Part shown: one piece after another, positions 8,501-44,000 of the stretch
Layout: every line of letters begins with the position of its first letter
Position numbering within the stretch: the stretch's first letter is position 1
DNA from: Patiria pectinifera
Taxonomy: Eukaryota > Echinodermata > Asteroidea > Valvatida > Asterinidae
NCBI GenBank assembly: GCA_029964075.1
Contig: CM057144.1
Coordinates: 7,711,281 to 7,775,280 of the forward strand
Direction: 5' to 3'
DNA: 64,000 bases
Position numbers and translations under genes: made by a program
The notes under the pieces: model-generated
The model's database searches: none
What the model was told of the DNA's origin: nothing
Seen by the model: only the letters and a program-made list of their open reading frames with translations

Positions 8501-11500
8501 GATAATGACTACACCATCGTATTACTGACCTAATTATTTTTGATAAAAGCTTATTTGGTTTAAAAAAAGTAATGACACTAAATTTTCAGTGAAATGATTC
8601 CTTCTGGCATGCTGTCATTTTGAAGAATAGAATAAAAGAAGGCCATTCCCAAAGATGCGTCAAGTGACCAATTTTTGGAAATTTCCGTTGGCAGTTGGCT
8701 TGTAATTGGGCAAATCCGGTTGAAACACACATATGCTTTTATAATCTTTTATAATCTGTTACACCTCTAGTTTGCAGGAATCGGTTTCCATGACATTTTC
8801 ACTGATTATACACAAGAGTATAATTAATATGCTCCATCAAAATGACTTTTGAGAAATTTAACAATATCTGCTTGCACAAGTGTTTTGGGGTTACCCTGTA
8901 TTGCATTTTCTCTAAATATACAGCATTTACAGAGCTAACGCTTCATCAGGTTAGTTGTTAAACACCCGTCTTTGGATTTTAAGCACTTTCGTTGCTGCAA
9001 ACAAAAACAATGCACCAATGACATACATGTATGGTCTACTCTACCTTTAAATGTAATGCACACATAAAACCAAATGAGTTTGTATACATTATTCATACAA
9101 ATGCATACTGCATGACCAGGGCACTTATAGAAATAATATTTACTACTTAACAATGCTATTTGAACAGGCAGAGCAGAAAATGGCACAGAGGTACACCTAC
9201 TACCTACCAGTAATTTTCACTCTTTCAGCACTGAAGACCATACTTGTGCATGAACTGCATAAAGTGCTGCCCTATAAACCACAAATCTTTCATGATTAAC
9301 TGATCAGTCAAATTTGTACCACATTTTGCTTATTTTTTTCCTTAGAGATTCAAATTATCTACTCAAATCTTTGTGAGACTTCTTTTACAACATCTACATA
9401 GAAGATGCCACAAAACTCTTTTGAAAATCAGAATAAGGTCTGGTAAACTCCAGCATTTAAAACTTAAAATAGGTTTAATAAATATCGGTCTACAAATTTC
9501 TAGTTCCCAAGTCACAAACAAAAATGTCCACTTTGTGCTAAACCTAAGATGGATTGATTTGACCTCTGACCTTGTGTTCCTCAAGGTAATCTGGAGTGAC
9601 GACCCACGGTGCATCAAATATAACCTCATCAACATAGCGGCAATGACGGACGGCTTCATAGCGTTCCCATTCCGTCAAGACTGTATTGCCTTTAAGTCTC
9701 CTCGTCAGCTCGTCACTGCAAACTGGACAAAAATAGTTGGAAATGCTTAAAGAGAATGTTTTGTAAAGATGCTACATCTAATATGGTAATAAGGCCAAGA
9801 AAAAAATACTTGTTTCTGGTTACCCCACCCAACCAAGAAAACCAAGTGGAACCTAAATCTAAAAAATTATGGTGCTACCCCAATGTAGTTTTTGGGGAAA
9901 TCATCCTGCCTTTTTTGGATGGAAAGTTTTATTTCATTTTTTTGTTAAGTTGGTCAGCAGTGCGGTCTTACTGCATTGTGCAGCAAAGCCTATAAACAGC
10001 ACAGCAAGTACAGAATAAACAATTGATTCGCATTTATTCAGGCCTGTGGTTTAACCATTTTCCTTTAACAATGGTGTGATTTTGTCAAAAAAAAACTTGT
10101 TGAAAAACAACATTTAGCCTTGAAAAGCTCGTAAAAAAATACCGCTTCCATATTTCTACGTTCACATTGATGGTGTTTGAAAGCGCATGAAGCATTGCTA
10201 AATCAGCTTTGAATTCGGTATAATTTTTCCCTGACGTGACCGGCAAGTTTTTGGATTCCGTGTCGTGTAGCAGTTGAGCAGACAAGTTCCCGTCAAATAA
10301 ACATGATAACTGGATTGGCAAAAGGACCGAGAACCAGCTAATATTAGGCAATGGCACTGTGAAATATGTTTTGCAAACATTTTTCAAGTGATCCAAGACT
10401 GAAGATTTCAGCGGGCTATTTCTTAAAACTGGAATCATTCTTCTCTCCGTCAGATATTTTTTCTGTTTTCTTTAAAACAAAACAAAATCTCTTACATTTT
10501 CATTATAGTTTAAGAACCCTTTATAATGTTTTCCTTTTTCTATTTCTGTAAACCTATGGCAGTGATGTAGGCTTACCTCCGACAATGAGATACACATTGG
10601 GTAGACAGTTCTTGGCTTGCATGAGCGCCCTCGCATGGCCAGCATGGAAAATGTCAAAGATGCCGTCTGCATAAACTCTGATAGGTCTAGCGGCTGTGGT
10701 TACATAAAAAAATTTAAAAAAAAGAATATAAAAAAAGTATAATTTGACACAACTATCTTGCTTGTAACTGTGATGTAATTCTAATACACCATGCCCATTG
10801 CCATCTTTGCACGGATATACAGCTCTTTGGCACGGAATCATTCCCATTACAATTTTCCGTTGAATGGAAATTCGTTTAATAGTTACGCATTTAATGGACT
10901 AGAATGCTGTTTACCATGTTCACCAGTCCTAGCTTGTTCCTGGGTCACTGGGTAAAAGGTCCACCTTTCTTTTTCTATAGTTGACTCCTGAGTGCCTCCT
11001 ACAATGGCCGGTTTCAGGCAACTCTAAAAAAAAAGGTGAAACTATCTTTCTCAATATTGTTGGTAAAAAAACCCAGACTGGCTTGGCTTGGTTCGAACAT
11101 GAAGGTGAATCACAGAAAACTGGTGTCAATACAGACTCCTGTGCAGTTTGGACATTCAGTTTCTTTAACAATACTGACTCCTTTTAGGGACAGTGCAATG
11201 TAGAATGGCTCTGTGTGGGGCTGCTCTGTGTGTATATCTGTACATACAACCAATACTGTGACCATACATGACCCGTAATATTTGCTATGGACTACGTGCA
11301 TGTGCCACTTCATCAGCACTCACAAGAGCTCCAAGTGAAAGGGGCACACCCCAGGAGGGACACACCCCAGGAGGGACACACCCCAGGAGGGACACACCCC
11401 AGGACTGAGGAGGGACACACCCAAGGAGGGACACATCCCAGGAGGGAGGGAGGAGGAGGGAGGAGGAGGAGCGACACACGGGACAGACACACCACACACA

Positions 11501-12182
11501 GACACACCCCAGGAGGGACACATCTCAGGAGGGACACACCAAAGGAGCAACACATCCCAGGAGGGGCACACCCCAGGAGGGACACACTCCAGGAAGGACA
11601 CACCCCTGGAAGGACACACCCCAGGAGGGACACATCCCAGGAGGGACACACCGTGTGAGTGCATTGGTTCCCAGACGTATGGCATGAAGTATGCTCATTT
11701 TTATCTGATTGTGCACAAACCTGTAGTGTTTTTGCAATAGTCCCTCCCAGTGGTCTCTAACACTCAAACCTGTTATAATAAGTACAGTACAGTACACTCT
11801 GAAATAAAATGGAATCCACGCAAGGATCCCCCTGCTTGGATTCCACTTAATTTCAAGCTGTACTGTATGTGTCGAGGCATTAAGCAATACTACTCAAGTA
11901 GCCTAAATACACACTACGCCAAAATCAAATCACACAATTGTCTTCCCTCTAATTTGTTCCATGGAATGCAAGTTGACATGATCCAACAGCAATACCTTGA
12001 GCTTCTCTGCATAACTGTATAAGTCAACATACATGTTGTACACTATTATAGTAGGATTTTTAAACTTGTCAAAATCTAACTTGTGCAAAATCTGGACTTA
12101 CCGTGCGTGGTACTTTAGGTGGCACTTCATCCTCATGGATATCGTTCTCATTAAGACTGTAACGCTTCCTCTTAACGGACAT
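5506..12182 (-). CDS. PCYT1: Choline-phosphate cytidylyltransferase (CCT), complete, 7 coding exons
   Basis: The enzyme makes CDP-choline from CTP and phosphocholine, the rate-limiting step of phosphatidylcholine synthesis. Coding exons, read right to left, are 12182-12102, 10987-10915, 10693-10577, 9722-9571, 8288-8061, 6465-6277 and 5637-5506. They sum to 972 bp (323 residues plus stop), all junctions are GT-AG and phases agree. Residues 4-7 (KRKR) form a basic nuclear signal. The nucleotidyltransferase core (about 54-217) has the HxGH motif HAGH at 68-71, a lysine at 101 matching the human catalytic-loop lysine, and the RTEGIST signature at 177-183. Residues 218-275 form the K/R/E-rich amphipathic M helix that senses membrane lipid. 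The tail (about 296-323) is short, with S/P motifs and an acidic end ESEDVQDE. Human PCYT1A has 367 residues, so the phospho-domain is reduced here. Invertebrate genes precede the vertebrate A/B split, so I use PCYT1. Confidence 0.95.
5860..6075. repeat. Imperfect inverted-repeat block in PCYT1 intron 6
   Basis: ACCCTAACAGTCCCC near 5870 is mirrored by GTAGGGGGTAGGGTTAAC near 6063-6080, and TCCAACACCAGGGT by ACCCTATGGTGTTGGA inside it. The block is about 215 bp and looks like a decayed MITE. No duplication of the target site is clear. Confidence 0.35.
7640..7765 (+). pseudogene. Short remnant resembling a tyrosine-recombinase (DUF3504/Crypton-like) ORF
   Basis: In one frame this reads [14 protein letters not shown], then a segment ending [12 protein letters not shown], before a stop. 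The pattern 'RF-x-x-L-(T/S)-D/E-x-D-L ... K-D/N-x-K-(S/N)-x-K-x-V-I' is one I associate with the N-terminus of invertebrate DUF3504/KIAA1958-like recombinase proteins. Upstream and downstream are stops and an 18-bp local duplication (GACAGTGAGGCTACTAAA-like, near 7724-7760). It lies inside PCYT1 intron 5 on the opposite strand. The identification rests on recall only. Confidence 0.3.
7811..7908. mobile_element. 98-bp hairpin element in PCYT1 intron 5
   Basis: The left arm (7811-7851, starting TAGTTGGAATTATTGGTCCC) is the near-perfect reverse complement of the right arm (7867-7908, ending GGACCAGTAATTCCAACTA). The loop is about 15 bases. Such full-length hairpins are typical of tiny foldback MITEs. 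It could equally be a structured intronic RNA element. Confidence 0.55.
8896..9050 (+). repeat. Dispersed repeat, second copy of 4925-5075
   Basis: Shared words include ATACAGCATT, GAGCTAA, CTTCATCA, TTTTTAGCACTT/TTTTAAGCACTT, CAAACAAAAACA and CTCTACCTTTAA, in the same order and spacing as the copy at 4925-5075. The similarity is imperfect, so the two are old. No terminal repeats were recognised and the class is unknown. Confidence 0.5.
11335..11655 (+). repeat. 16-bp minisatellite in PCYT1 intron 1
   Basis: The unit is close to CCAGGAGGGACACACC, repeated head to tail for about 300 bp. It is interrupted near 11444-11515 by purine-rich GGAGGAGGGA and a CACACACAGACACA tract. One strand is almost pure purine plus CAC. 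Long open frames through it are only a by-product of a unit that, at 16 bp, cycles through frames without stops. Confidence 0.85.
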
Positions 12183-32000: not shown

Positions 32001-35000
32001 GAGCCCAAAGATGAGATTGAGGAGTTTTCAGAAATGAGTGAAGATCAAGGCCATGGATTTGGTAAGTAGGCTAAACCTCTTGTGTGAGTGAAGTTGGTAT
32101 TGTGAGTCTTCAACTCTTTTTAGTATAGAAACTCCTTTTACCCTAACCCTGCCAGACGCAACACAGTGCATCAGGTGAAAGAGTCTGGTGTACTTTTGAT
32201 GCATTCAGCTATCAACACCAGTGCATAAATAGCCAATTCTGAGACATAGACAGCTAGTCCCATTGAACTATGCCACAGTTGTATCCTGCTGCATTCAGTG
32301 ACCACAGACTCTGAGGCAGTTTGGCCTTGACACTTTTGAGCTGATGGATCTTGCTACACTGGGCAGGCATTTGGCAGGGTTTCTAGCCAAGGGTTCAGGT
32401 TAAGGGCATTATATGGATTCCATGCAAAAAAGAACGCCTTACTCGGTTGCAAAGACAACACAGGCTATCACACAACATCAAGGACAACACGGGTGTGTGC
32501 ACATTCTGGCTAGAATGAATTGTCTGAATAGAATGAATTGTGCATTCTTCTGGCATTAAATGCATTGCGTCCCTCCTATGGGGTTCTTGATGAGTGGTTA
32601 TGATATGAAGCACCATCGACTACAGAGACCATGGCACAATTAATGTACACTTAAAGAGTTTATTTCTAAAACGCGATATAAGCCATTTTGTGTCTTTTAG
32701 ATTCCCACTCTCCCCTGGATGCGCAAAGTCAAATTCGACGGCTATCATATAGTTAAGCACAACTTGAAAATACAGCTACAGTGTTTCTATTGTTTACAAT
32801 TTCATAACCAGGCAAATGTTTCCCTTTTTTTCAAATGGATATAATTTCTTTACTTAAGGGACTTGTGCATACATTTATTCAAGGGCTGTGAACAGTGTGT
32901 TGCTTGCACTAGTTGGTGGTGTATAGTGTATAGACTAATCCAGGCAGGCTGTCAAATCTAACACAGAGTCCCCCTTCAGTCGCGACAGCGTTGTTCAGAT
33001 AGTCCATCACGGGGCAGTTGCTTTGTACAGTGCAATAGCGTGCACAATGCTTTCTCCATTGAAGGGGGCCTCGTGAGGATACAGTTATATGTGTCCAGCT
33101 GTCTATAGCAGCATGTTTCTTTAATATTCAACAGCAAGCAGAGGGATGTGAACCCAAGTGTTCCTTTGAAATTTCCACTATCATACAAAGCATAGAATAT
33201 ATTACGTAGATGTGGCCACTATTTTATCATATTGTAGAAAACATGGATTTTGACAACAATGAAATTGACAATTTCGACTCGGAGGATATTTCCCAAGCAA
33301 CAGTGAAGGAAGAGGTAAACACAAGTCAAGAGCCAGAGGTTAATGACAAAGGAAGAGCACAGAAACCAAAGTAAGTTCCTTCAAAACATTAACCATGAAA
33401 TATTCACAAGATGGAATTCGTGTCAGGGTGATGTAAATTCAATTTGGGATTTTGCCCTTCATCGACGTAGGGCAAAACCCAAAGCATTAACTAAAATGTT
33501 GCATCTTACTGTCAAAGACAAATTCTGTATAAAATAACGCCAACTTTTAATACGAATCCTATATCAGCTGAGCTTTAATTCATACGCAAAAACAAAACTC
33601 AAATCAGCTCGATCATGGTAACTTCCTTCCAAACATAAATCTTACGTCAACTGAACAGCTTTTTTAGAACACAAGTCACTGTTGACATGATCACAAATGA
33701 GAACCAAAATGGATACTAATTCCAAGCAATTTTTATCCTTTTGCAAGTGTGCATCCTGACGTCTGCTCCAGCTCGGGCTGGGAAACAATCAGAGAAGAAG
33801 CCGAGGACAAGGATGAGGTTGCCGCGGATATCCAAGTTGATTGCTCTTCGTTGCCCATGACAACCAATGACTCTGGTGACCAAGTGCTGCGATTCTTTTG
33901 GATGGATGCCTACGAGGATCCGTACCATCAACCAGGTAGATTTAGTGGATAATGTAAAGTTCATTATTGAATTTTCCCTTCATCCAATATTTGACTAAGT
34001 TTGATCAATTTTTCAGGTGAAAAAAATTAACTTGCACCTTATTGATATATTATTTCTAAGATTATTTGCTAGATTAAATTCACACAGTCAACTGTTAGTA
34101 CTTTTGATGCAGTATAAATGCAGTCTTAAAGTGTGGGAAACTCGAGGTAATTGCCTCATGATCATGACGTAAACCAGATCACAAGTATTTGAATTTTCTA
34201 GTTGAAGATTGGGTGCTGTCATTGATTGGGCTATATTGCCCTAAACAACATGTACCTGAAAGAACCAAATGTGAACAATGGTGAAAGATCTTGAACAATG
34301 CAGATCGCCGACACCATTAGTCATAGTTTCACCTGCTGTTTCAATGTTGGATACACATCAGCTATCTAATCCAATAAACCCGAGGTACTCTTGTGTCACG
34401 CTGCGCATCACGATGCCTGCCGAACAATATGATACGTAGACATCCTGCTCAAACTCAACAACATTCAACAGATGCCAAAGCACGATCATTTTTGTGAGGG
34501 TATTACAATCTACATATGTATCAGGTCAACTACATGAAGGACCGGAAGCCTACATGTTTAAACCTTCTAGCCACCGTAGGATCCAAAAGTGACACTGTTC
34601 TGTTGGATTATGCTGCTCCCGTTTACTGGTCATTAGTGCCCAATCCAACCATTTCCCTCAGCTGTTGTACCTTGTTGCGTTACCAGAGTTGTGGTTAGTG
34701 TCCTTGGAAAAAAGTGATGTAAGAGGTGACTGAGAGATTCCCTGCGAGATATCAAGGATTAAAAGGCAGCTAGATGTTAAAAAAAAAACTTGAAATGGTC
34801 AATGCAGTGAAGTCAAGGCAAGGAGGAAGTACATTGTTCACTTACATTGTTTCCACAAACAGAACCTGGTCAACCTGCCAGTGATGATGAGTTGTCAGTA
34901 GAATCAATGCCATGCGATGTCCAACTCACTGCCAGTGGATTGGAACTAAACAGACCTACAGATACATCACCCACCTCATCCAAACAACATTCACCATCAT

Positions 35001-38000
35001 CCCTGAACAGTTTGTCTGCCAGTCAGGCATCACACCATACAAGGAATGAACCAAGGAATCTCTCAGGTTTTAAGGAGCAGAAACCTCTGGATTTAGATCA
35101 GATTTTTAAAGGTATGAAACAGATCATCGTTGATAACATCCAAGAGATGCAGAACCAGACGAGACGAAATGATGCTGCACAAAGGGCATTTATGGAAGAG
35201 ATGAGGAGTGAAATGACAAGCATAAGACAGAGGCAAGACTCTATCTTGGATGGCCAGAAAGCACTCCTTGACAACATTCGACAGCTGCAACTTGGATCAA
35301 GGTTTGCAAGTCCTGTTTCAATGTCAGCAGATTGCCCTACCGGTATTTCTAATCTGGCATCAGCACTGAAAACAGGGCAAGTCTCTCAGCATGTAACTCA
35401 CAGGTTCAACACCCTCCCAGCAGCAACTGTACAGAGTACAGTGTCCAAACCATCCGAATCCATACACAGCATTGGCTCTGCACCTACAGTCAACTCCCAA
35501 ATGCCTCTCCTGGCCACGAAAGCAGTTGGAGGCAATCCCAAAAAGTTGTCTCTCAAACCTGATTATTGTTATGATCCCAAACCATCTTCTACACCAATTC
35601 CAGTTGATCTATATAAATCAGAGTGCCAGAATGAGTCGCCATCCAAAGAATCTGTAAACCAGTTAACATCAATACCTTCCACGGACAGCAATGATTTTCC
35701 ATCTGCTTCATCGCTAATTCCGCCACCATCCACAGCAATTCCGCCACCATCCACAGCAATCAGTCAAACTGGAAATGTGTCAGGAAGCTCATCTGTACCA
35801 TTGGAGTTAACCCCTGTCTGTGTCCTAGCTGCCCAACGTGGGATGTTTCTCCTTGGTGGAGTTGAAGGGATGGTGCGTAGTATTAGTAAATATGAGGACC
35901 ACCTGTGGAGTTCCTGGCTGAGGAGTGGTGATGACACAGCTAAAGCATGTCGTTCGCTTTGTACAACTTTACTTAAAAGTGAATTCTCTAAGCACGAGCT
36001 AGCCACAAGAAATCTTACCGGAAGGAGTAAAGACCCCTTAATGCAAAACATCGATTTCCCTAAGCTCGATGAGGTCATACTCCGGGCCATTTTTTCTCAG
36101 GCCAAGCTGCAGTTTCCAGGTTTCAAGGACTCTTATGAGGACTCCAGCTGTGCCACAGTCCAATTGCTCAATAACATATGCAGGCGTGTACGAGCCAACG
36201 AAAGAAAATAGACACTTAACAGCCTATGCAATGTAATTTTTTAATGCAATCCTGGAAGATGAGCCATTTTCAAGGGTATTTTGGTGCATTCAGGGGTCAA
36301 ATTTCATGAAAAGTCCACTGGGCCAGTTCCTCTTAAATTTACTGAACCGGAACACAGTTTACAAGACCAGGGCACAAAGAAAGGGAAATTTTGCGGAAAA
36401 AAAGATACCAGGCACATAATTGCCAAACATGCTCGGATGGTTAGAAAATCTTTTATATTGCCAATTTTTGTGTGTCTTGACATAACTATTCAATCATGTG
36501 TATTTCTTGACTGAATTATTGAAAGTGATCCCCAAAAGTGATCAAACCTTGCCTAAATCAATGTAAAAATATATTTAAGGTTGATTATTCTGAAATATAC
36601 TGGAGAATTTAAGTCGTTCACATGCACAACGTTACTAGTCATGATAGCCTTTCACTCTGAGGTGGGGGGAGGGGGTAATATACTGAGTATACAGTATTTA
36701 TACGTCGGTGAAGGGCAAACCCTAATATTGAATTTACATCACCTCAATGCAAATTCCATCTTATGAATACTTTCATTGCGGTACCCGTTACTACATCAGA
36801 TTTGAACCAGCCAACCGATTCTGCAAGCTGGGTGGGCGAGTGGTAAGACATCTGCAGTGCACTAGAAAGCAGGAGGTTGTGGGTTCAAGTCCCACCCGAG
36901 TGATGTATTCTAACTTTCTCCCAGGGGGTAACACTGAGTATACAGTGTTTATATGTCAGTGAAGGGCAAAAACTAATATTGAATTTACTTCACCCCGATG
37001 CAAATTCCATCTTATGAATAATTAAATTCCAATAATGATATAATTTGAGGCTTCTTGTTTATATGCCAAAAGGCTTTAAGTGTACATACCCAGGGTACGG
37101 TACAGGGGTTATATTCAGTTTTAGGCAGTTTATTATTTATAGTCGGTCAGTTGGCCCGTTGGCTGGTTACTCAGATGACAGTGGGCTTGCCCATTGTGTC
37201 TAAGCAAAAAGAGATGCATTAACACAAGAGGTCTTTAAAAACATGATCACATCTCTGTTGAAAAACATCCTGGTGCAATAGACTTGTTACATGCCTGTAT
37301 ATATTTCTGTGTACTATTTTAAAATGATGACAATTTTTCAATTCTAGGCATTGTGCATGGACTGCCTTAGTTAACCTGTACATATTTTGTACATGATGAT
37401 AGAACAAATTACACTCTGATTAAAACAAAAACGCCTGAACTGCATGCAAACTTGCTGGGTTTTTTTCTTCAAAATTTGTTACTTTTTCCCCCACAGCTTG
37501 GGCTAATGGGAAAGTACTTGTACGTGTAAGGAACAGTTTCAGTACAGATAATGGAAATTGGATAACGGAAAACTACTGACATTACAGTAAAGTTGTTTTT
37601 CTCAATAACGGTCTTGCACATCTTCGCATTACAAAGGCATAGTGCATGGCACAGTGCATGTGATAAAGAGTGCCTCGTATGAAAGAGTATTTCATGTTGC
37701 GCAGGAAAGCTCAAAGTAATCATAGTTTTCACTGGTGATTTAATTCAGTTCTTGTTTTGACATAAAGGTACAATTTAAAAAATAATAATAATAATGGTTT
37801 TGCCACTGTGATATGGGACACTTGTTTTCTTCTTAACGACGCATGTGATCTATTAGTTTGCTGTGGCTGTCATCATAGTGCTCATGTATTGAAAGCCTTC
37901 GCAAATGCAACAATTATTAATAAATACCTTGGAGATTTGATGGTTTCTGATTGGTCGAGACTCGATCACGTGGGGGTGTATTAACGGTGATATAAAGACC

Positions 38001-41000: not shown

Positions 41001-44000
41001 GAGTTATTGGGACCTGATTTCCCTTGTGTGCATTATCTGTGGTGCTAGTCTATTGTTCATAGCTCGATGGCTTTACTCAGTTCTGGCGATATTTACATGT
41101 AATACAAGACACAAAATGTCTGTCATGTTAGGTGTTAAAACTGTAATTGTGAGATACCTGGAATATATGTGGATGTCTCTTACTCAAATCCTTTGAAAAT
41201 GACAAGAACACTCAAAACTACAGATTTAAGTGGTAGAAACGTTACAATATTTCTTTATTTTCAAAAATTCAGGTTTAACTAGGACATCATCAAAATGACT
41301 ATACATGTAAAACATGTTTAATTATTTTTTAAAACTGGCATAAATCTGTGTGAACCATGGAAATGATTACACTCCCTCACCACTGAACTTTATGTTAAAG
41401 TATTTGATGCAAATTTGACATGTATTTTCTTATTTCAGGTACCGTGTATTTGTTTGGTCGAGTGTGGATTGAGTCTGCAAAGACACACATCAGCTGCTGC
41501 CTGTCTGTCAAGAACATTGAGAGAGTTATATACCTGTTGCCAAGGGAAACGGTGAGTTTATAACATTTATGAGTAAAAGCCGTAACTCAAACAGCGGTTA
41601 GAAACTCTCATTGATATTTTTTAAAAATATACATTTTGAGACGGTAATAAAGTTCCCTTTATTGCCAAATGCCTTCATATCTATGTTGTCCAGCTTTTAT
41701 ATTCTATTTGACACTATTGTTTCATTTACTGTTCTTTACTAGTTTACTTGAGAGTATATTGAAAATATACATAACACTGAGCATAGTGAAATATTTTTAA
41801 GTAGTATATTCTAAATGTCCATGCTGAGAAATATTGATTATTTGAACACATTTCTGAACTAAAGGAAAAAAATGTTATAATAAATCTAGTATTCTTGTCT
41901 TCTTTTACAAGATTCACAGATAGCTTTTTGGACAATTAAATTACAATTGTTACTATTTTTCAGAAATCCATATTTCTTTTAATTGTTGGGAATAGATGGA
42001 TGAATTTGAAAAGTTGACAGGCCTGCAAAAGGATCTGAACAGTTGTCATGGTGCCCAGTGTTATTTTCACATTTTTGCTTAATGTTTTCAGAGGATTAAC
42101 AGCAAGACTGGACAGGATACTGGGGAAGAAGTCAGCATGGTGGACATATATCAGGAGTTTGACAAGCTGGCTAACCATTACAAAATCATGAAGTATAGGT
42201 CCAAGGTAACGTCAACATTGTTGTCCTTATGGTTACATTTTGATCATTTTTTTTGGGGGGGGGGGGAGGGGGGAAGGCGGCTTCCCCATTTTGGTTTCTA
42301 TTTTATTAAAATATCTCTCTGTCCAGGAGATTTTTTTAGGGGTGATAGATAGATCTGTTCATGTAATTTAGGGATGCTGTGTAATGTGTGTATGTCCAAT
42401 GTATGCCACTCTAAATTTTCAAGAAGGCAGGGAGGGGTGTGGAAGTGGGTGAGGGGTTTGTATAACTAACAAAGATGTCGCTCCAACCATTCAGGAACTG
42501 AAAAAGTTCAGCTCCATCCTACACCTTGTAAGTGCCGCTTGTGTGCGTCATAACAGGACAGACTGTCCTCAGCGGTCAGTCCTCAACGGTCTTGGTTTGA
42601 GCTGCTTTGTTCTCTTCTACAAAACGAGCATCAAGCAATGAAGTTGTTATTGAAGTTATTGTTTGGACCACACGAAGAGACTCTAATTGGAATTATGTTC
42701 AATTTGTCATTACTCTTGTTTTGTTCTTGTTATGCTTTATGTTTACAGTTCAAAAAAGTTCTTTTAATTTCATTTACTTCAGATTGAACCACTTTCCCCC
42801 CCCCCCCTCGCTTAAAATTGCCCATTGCTCGTTCCCTCAAGAATGTATGCCCTGCCCTTTTACGTTAATTTAAATCGGCAAAATATTTCTCATTTTTTCT
42901 TGGTTGGCAGTATTCATTAACTTTGAGGTACATTGTATCTCTTTGCACACCCATTGTACTTCGACAAGTAGTAAAAATTTTAGATATTACAAACTGTTCT
43001 TCAATGTATGTATAATTATTTGACATTTTAGAAAGTCACCAAGCAGTACTGTTTTGAGAAGGATGGTATTCCCTCTGAATCAGAGTATCAAGAAGTCAGA
43101 TATGGGGTATGTACATAAATATGGTCCAGTTAAACATTCAGTGCACTGCCCAATTGCTCTCAGTTTTAGGCAGTAAATTTAGTGATTGGCTGGACCGCTC
43201 CTGAGGTATGGTCACTAAACAGATAACAAAGAAACCATATTAAATTACGTTTTGCCAATTTCAAACTTCAATAATTCCATCTCGTACTACTTTCAAATGT
43301 CCATTTGATTTTGAATTGAATACAGTCTGTATTAAGGATATTATTAAGTCAATGCCATTTTATGCACGATATTGCCCTTGGTACATTTAACCCCTTAAGG
43401 ACGGGGTGTAATGGGGACATTCCTCCACACATAGAGCAAGTGGCCCGCATGACTGCACAGCCTTTGTGTGGCAGCGGGACTGCACAAAAGCAGCAGCTGT
43501 GGAACTACCCACTAGCCATGTGCCACGGCATACCACAGCTGGCAACTGCATTCCAATGAGGATTAGCGGCCGCGGCCATGACCGCTTCCCGTACACATGG
43601 GGTTAAGACACCTGTGTTCGTAGACAAAATGAATTGATTTGTGTTTTATTTACCTGTCATTTTTGTAGGCTGAGTTCCCCCAGCTTCCGATAAATGTGGA
43701 AGGAGAGACCTTCAGTGGTGCATTTGGCACTAACACCTCCAGCTTGGAACATTTACTAATGGAGAGAAAGATGAGGGGTCCATGTTGGCTTGACATCAAG
43801 ATGCCACGTAAGCCAGGCAGTACTCAGCCTTATGACTTAGGGCCCAACAGAAAAATGGTTTTCAACAACTCATTTTCTTAAGAGAAATGTCTTGATTTTG
43901 CAGCTAGTTTGACAATGACATGTCCTGGCCTGGGATTTTGTTGACGTTTTATCCAGCCTGCAACTTGTCTTCTGATGAGAAAAATTTGTTCTTGTCTGCT

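Follow-up and report, generated by a model that had tools for sequence, protein, structure and literature searches.

The window analysed here, 64,000 nucleotides from Patiria pectinifera (GenBank assembly GCA_029964075.1, contig CM057144.1, positions 7,711,281 to 7,775,280 of the forward strand), contains the gene for the catalytic subunit of DNA polymerase alpha (POLA1), and one of the POLA1 introns holds a long open exon on the same strand whose C-terminal end is BEN-like. The question raised by this locus is whether the exon is spliced to POLA1, as the original prediction suggested, belongs to a gene of its own or is the relic of a mobile element. The reading that we favour, with a probability of roughly 0.47, is that it represents the large last exon of an old, maintained BEN-like gene nested on the sense strand of the POLA1 intron; a short 5' exon of its own is slightly favoured over a fusion to POLA1. 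According to this reading, the exon would share ancestry with the BEN-like proteins of DNA transposons in the same genome, and its phase-1 acceptor would need an upstream exon with a phase-1 donor. That upstream exon would most likely be the gene's own, lying within 927 bp after the POLA1 exon, and the product would be a coiled-coil and BEN-like protein, presumably nuclear, that may bind DNA or chromatin.

The exon lies in a stop-to-stop frame of 466 codons (34811-36211, + strand), inside the intron that follows the POLA1 exon ending at 33935. Read from the acceptor at 34862/34863 (...TGTTTCCACAAACAG|AACCTGG), the BEN-like terminal exon spans 34863-36211 on the + strand and encodes 449 residues plus the stop, with a first codon split with the upstream exon, as in a phase-1 acceptor. 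The first in-frame ATG after the acceptor, an alternative start read from the sequence, is at 34907-34909 on the same strand. The encoded protein has an acidic start, a coiled-coil-like stretch (about 35080-35300, judged by eye), a low-complexity linker and the BEN-like end. The original prediction had placed the open exon, its acceptor and its first ATG on the POLA1 strand, and reading of the open reading frame (ORF) and splice sites bore this out; its claim of an in-frame join also holds, as the joined translation of 33748-33935 and 34863-36211 runs from phase 1 to phase 1 and stays open up to the stop at 36209-36211. At the composition-based stop rate of 0.052 per codon, the chance of 449 stop-free codons at one place is about 4e-11. 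The splice scores, computed from splice-site frequencies, are ordinary: 6.3 for the POLA1 donor and 4.7 for the BEN-exon acceptor, which ranks 41 of the 456 AGs in the intron. Downstream of the stop, the first AATATA, ATTAAA and AATAAA motifs occur at 36568, 37021 and 37919, respectively.

The C-terminus of the exon is BEN-like by homology. The region concerned (35801-36196, + strand) is similar to transposon and genomic BEN proteins, and a search of the genome with the BEN family found eight places over the cut-off among 35 scored candidates. One of these, the genomic exon L033, scores 35.3 bits in Pfam BEN, above the cut-off, and the BEN stretch of the window matches it with 41 bits and 36% identity, which amounts to homology to an accepted BEN member. 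The BEN domain named in the original prediction thus stands through this match, whereas the Pfam BEN profile (PF10523) itself scores the C-terminus at E 0.0009-0.0061 and 17.2-19.8 bits, under the cut-off of 23.2; DUF5725 (E 3e-5 to 4e-4) is likewise under its cut-off. When the genome was searched for DUF5725, neither the query nor the controls produced a match. Sequence searches of the PDB with the whole protein and with alignment A1, which includes five transposon sequences, gave no match, and an AlphaFold single-sequence model of the 138 C-terminal residues reached a pLDDT of 40. Furthermore, when viral contigs were scanned with A1, the pattern occurred in 48 stretches, 0 of which encoded a relative.

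Beyond the window exon, a search at the protein level picked up 12 places in the genome (13 matches among 20 scored candidates), nine on contig C7, two on C10 and one on C22, and the matches to the window protein are 32-44% identical. We fetched 10 kb around each of these 12 relatives (L015-L026), several of which have stretches of 1-3.5 kb in common at about 95-99% identity in dispersed places. Long ORFs were listed for seven of the flanks; a large ORF on the opposite strand, whole or in pieces, faces the BEN exon in four (L016, L017, L024 and L025), and no facing large ORF was found within the stretch fetched in L018, L019 and L021. The facing ORF of L017 (635 aa), the only one scanned, gave a weak match to DDE_Tnp_ISAZ013 (E 0.028; 13.9 bits versus a cut-off of 26.9). 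Element ends were sought in nine of the 12 copies, and both were found in five, with similar terminal inverted repeats; the 3-bp target duplications are equal in all five two-ended copies (TAA in X17, X21, X22 and X24, TTA in X23). One end was seen in X26, and X15, X16 and X20 gave no ends with the patterns used. Judged from these sequences, at least the two-ended relatives are genes of DNA transposons. Zator has been described as similar to ISAzo13, with 3-bp duplications produced by both (PMC10045372), and we tentatively regard the transposons carrying the BEN-like gene as Zator/ISAzo13-like. Neither the 12 genomic matches nor the kinship with mobile elements was foreseen in the original prediction.

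These relatives bear directly on the phase of the splice sites. The start of the BEN exon is recognisable in seven of the 12 flanks, which represent about four subfamilies, and each fits a phase-1 acceptor followed by an acidic, SDDE-like start. These acceptors were picked by eye, and phase 1 rests on long frames (211-337 aa) in five of the seven; the frames of L018 and L025 break after 25 and 29 codons, respectively. Since transposon BEN exons, where their start is recognisable, also fit phase-1 acceptors, the phase match with POLA1 is weak evidence of a fusion, and it may have been inherited rather than evolved for that purpose. Beyond the BEN region and linker, the resemblance of the window protein to the transposon proteins does not reach significance, the best E for its N-terminal 200 residues being 0.24, so the homology of the acceptors is argued from phase and architecture only; a fragment of L024 matches residues 93-227 of the window protein with E 0.018.

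The window exon itself does not behave as a transposon copy. A DNA search of the genome returned the window copy and no second one, no transposase relic was found near the exon (best E 0.22), and no terminal-repeat relic around it rose above shuffled sequence. An intact or recent DNA transposon was rejected, as a transposase and terminal repeats were not detected beside the BEN exon. Inverted repeats around the locus were considered as the termini of a BEN element and rejected; they include an abundant dispersed repeat at about 36665-37034, and the 3' flank before it (36212-36664) had no other match listed in the genome search.

Age and maintenance are suggested by base composition. The CpG observed-to-expected ratio of the window exon is 0.36, with TpG and CpA in excess, and that of the POLA1 exons (approximate bounds) is 0.44; the rest of the intron is at 0.53 and seven transposon BEN stretches are at 0.63-0.91. 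When four transposon BEN frames were made to decay neutrally to the CpG level of the window exon, the frame was kept in 0-24 of 150 runs per setting, namely in 0-2, 4-20 and 6-24 runs at tenfold, twentyfold and fortyfold CpG transition rates, respectively. The simulation covered 12 settings, had no indels, used frames shorter than that of the window and assumes a transposon-like starting CpG level. It supports selection for the open frame but is no proof of it, and the window exon is probably part of an old, selected gene.

The host gene maps exon by exon to 26612-62736 of the window on the + strand, with a human POLA1 sequence as the query; five N-terminal exons were mapped in this way. The assembly measures 613.5 Mb and has the gene content of a eukaryote. 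The POLA1 exon at 33748-33935 (+ strand), called exon 10 in the original prediction, ends in the phase-1 donor CAG|GTAGAT, and the next exon in the polymerase reading is at 41439-41551 (+ strand; bounds from splice scores); the intron between them, which holds the BEN-like exon, is 7.5 kb. The joined peptide of these two exons has 12 PDB matches, all of them the DNA polymerase alpha catalytic subunit, the best being residues 321-393 of chain 8d96_C (E 1.1e-28). In the numbering of that chain, the exon before the BEN-like exon ends near residue 356, which we take to be before the polymerase core. A shared N-terminus would thus amount to about 356 POLA1 residues instead of the 400 originally proposed. 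A further polymerase-like match at 1081-1140 was rejected, being weak (E 0.67) and having no open frame of at least 60 codons.

What tips the balance slightly towards the nested gene is the compact stretch that precedes the BEN exon in those transposons that have a facing ORF. In these four flanks the gap between the two is about 0.5-1.1 kb, the transposon 5' exon would lie within it, and a 5' region of similar size would fit in the 927 bp of intron before the window exon (33936-34862, + strand; CpG ratio 0.46). ATG-started pieces that reach a phase-1 GT do occur there (for example ATG 34107 and GT 34147), and 500-bp windows from 33.4 to 34.8 kb have slightly higher CpG ratios of 0.59-0.75. 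Several observations nevertheless weigh against this reading. Chance alone would produce ATG/GT pairs of this kind, homology revealed no 5' exon either here or in the transposons, and a CpG-rich promoter upstream is not indicated, the ratio of 0.46 being equal to the gene-body mean of 0.46 and 44% of 117 windows being as high. The nearest certain upstream donor is that of POLA1, and it has the right phase. The codon-usage score does not single out the BEN frame (0.041 versus at most 0.038 in the other frames), with a table that was built from approximate exon bounds and contained a stop codon. In addition, as many as 16% of the neutral runs kept an open frame under the mildest simulation settings, which would also fit an inert relic, either of a BEN gene from a transposon or of a duplicate that died, whose frame has stayed open by luck. 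A further point for such a relic is that 22 of the 56 BEN columns that are invariant in the five A1 transposon sequences differ in the window exon, one of them as a gap. The best-scoring relatives found are transposon genes, too, but we consider such a relic improbable in view of the 449 codons without a stop, a CpG depletion that has introduced none, and the lack of the adjoining transposase or termini that a recent insertion would have.

The other alternative, in which the BEN-like exon serves as an alternative last exon of POLA1, is quite possible, though we would not call it probable. One promoter would then serve two products, polymerase alpha itself and a protein in which about 356 N-terminal POLA1 residues are followed by 449 residues from the BEN-like exon. 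The N-terminal tail of POLA1 makes replisome contacts, and the fusion could equip them with a module that binds DNA or chromatin, or it could serve as a decoy. It trails the nested gene narrowly, since the POLA1 donor is certain and has the right phase; POLA1 also provides the sole certain upstream exon, and translation across the join stays open as far as the stop. Within its first 15 residues, where its acidic SDDE-like start resembles the transposon BEN proteins, the BEN-like exon has no start codon, and the CpG pattern is that of the POLA1 gene body. However, the phase is common to the transposon BEN exons, the splice scores are unremarkable and alignment gives no significance to the N-terminal resemblance. 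The fuller scenario, in which POLA1 captured a last exon that is BEN-like and akin to mobile elements and one promoter now yields both polymerase alpha and a fusion of its tail to a DNA- or chromatin-binding module, appears less likely than not. Even if the gene is nested, some splicing from POLA1 to the BEN-like exon would be expected, since its acceptor is present in every POLA1 pre-mRNA.

A separate question is the direction of descent, and we give even odds that the transposons took the BEN gene from a host lineage like this one, as opposed to domestication of a transposon gene by the host. In the tree, the five transposon sequences form a group that excludes the window exon, with support of 100/99, which speaks for a host origin; the same split has 86/94 in another tree and is not firm, and the trees have long branches and an unknown root. 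L033 is matched better by the window (41 bits) than by the transposon proteins (at most 22 bits), but it sits on a very long branch, and for a second genomic BEN exon, L037, the order is reversed, the transposon protein of L021 scoring 35 bits and the window 24 bits. Moreover, L033 and L037 both appear to be phase 0 at the acceptor, unlike the window exon and the transposons.

Comparison with known systems places the exon between several of them. BEN domain proteins (Pfam PF10523) include the BEND5, BEND6 and Insv type, and the window exon resembles them in carrying its BEN-like end after coiled-coil-like and linker stretches; it differs in scoring under the Pfam cut-off, in lying in a POLA1 intron and in having no start codon at its beginning. 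With the BEN gene of the tentatively named ISAzo13/Zator-like transposons it has in common the phase-1 acceptor and the acidic start, where these are recognisable, but it has no second DNA copy in the genome search, is CpG-poor, falls outside their clade and has no detected facing transposase-like ORF or terminal repeats. Host-transposase fusion genes have reportedly arisen by exon capture, as Cosby et al. are said to have described in 2021. As in these, an exon related to mobile elements would serve as an alternative last exon and would match a host exon in phase; unlike in these, its module is BEN-like and not a transposase, and the splicing is putative. The bracovirus genes Ben4 and Ben9 were domesticated by Lepidoptera; their BEN domain is described as closing the third and last exon, and a kept Ben4 fragment corresponds to that exon (PMC4574769). 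The likeness, drawn by description alone, is that of a BEN gene of mobile (there viral) origin kept by a host, although Ben4 and Ben9 are virus-borne, occur in butterflies and are not in POLA1. A literature search at the level of titles and the beginnings of abstracts found no description of a BEN-like exon in POLA1 or of such a BEN-carrying transposon, and no paper on DUF5725 was found.

If the fusion is used, exon capture has given a second product to a core gene of replication, and the effect of a polymerase alpha tail lacking the polymerase on replication-coupled chromatin could be tested directly. If the gene is nested, its BEN-like product remains related to the accessory genes of transposons and suggests that a BEN module has moved between hosts and transposons.

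Three other features of the window were observed. The dispersed repeat at about 36665-37034 has at least 74 matches (best 40 of 3977 candidates scored) at about 72-94% identity, and it contains a weak tRNA match (36826-36903) that was not called by ARAGORN; it is possibly a tRNA-derived short interspersed element (SINE). At 11272-11893 there is a low-complexity tandem stretch that is open in several frames on both strands. Finally, a cytidylyltransferase-like exon (10554-10898, - strand; Pfam CTP_transf_like) reads like choline-phosphate cytidylyltransferase; PCYT1B also neighbours POLA1 in human, and the proximity of the two here hints at an old linkage.

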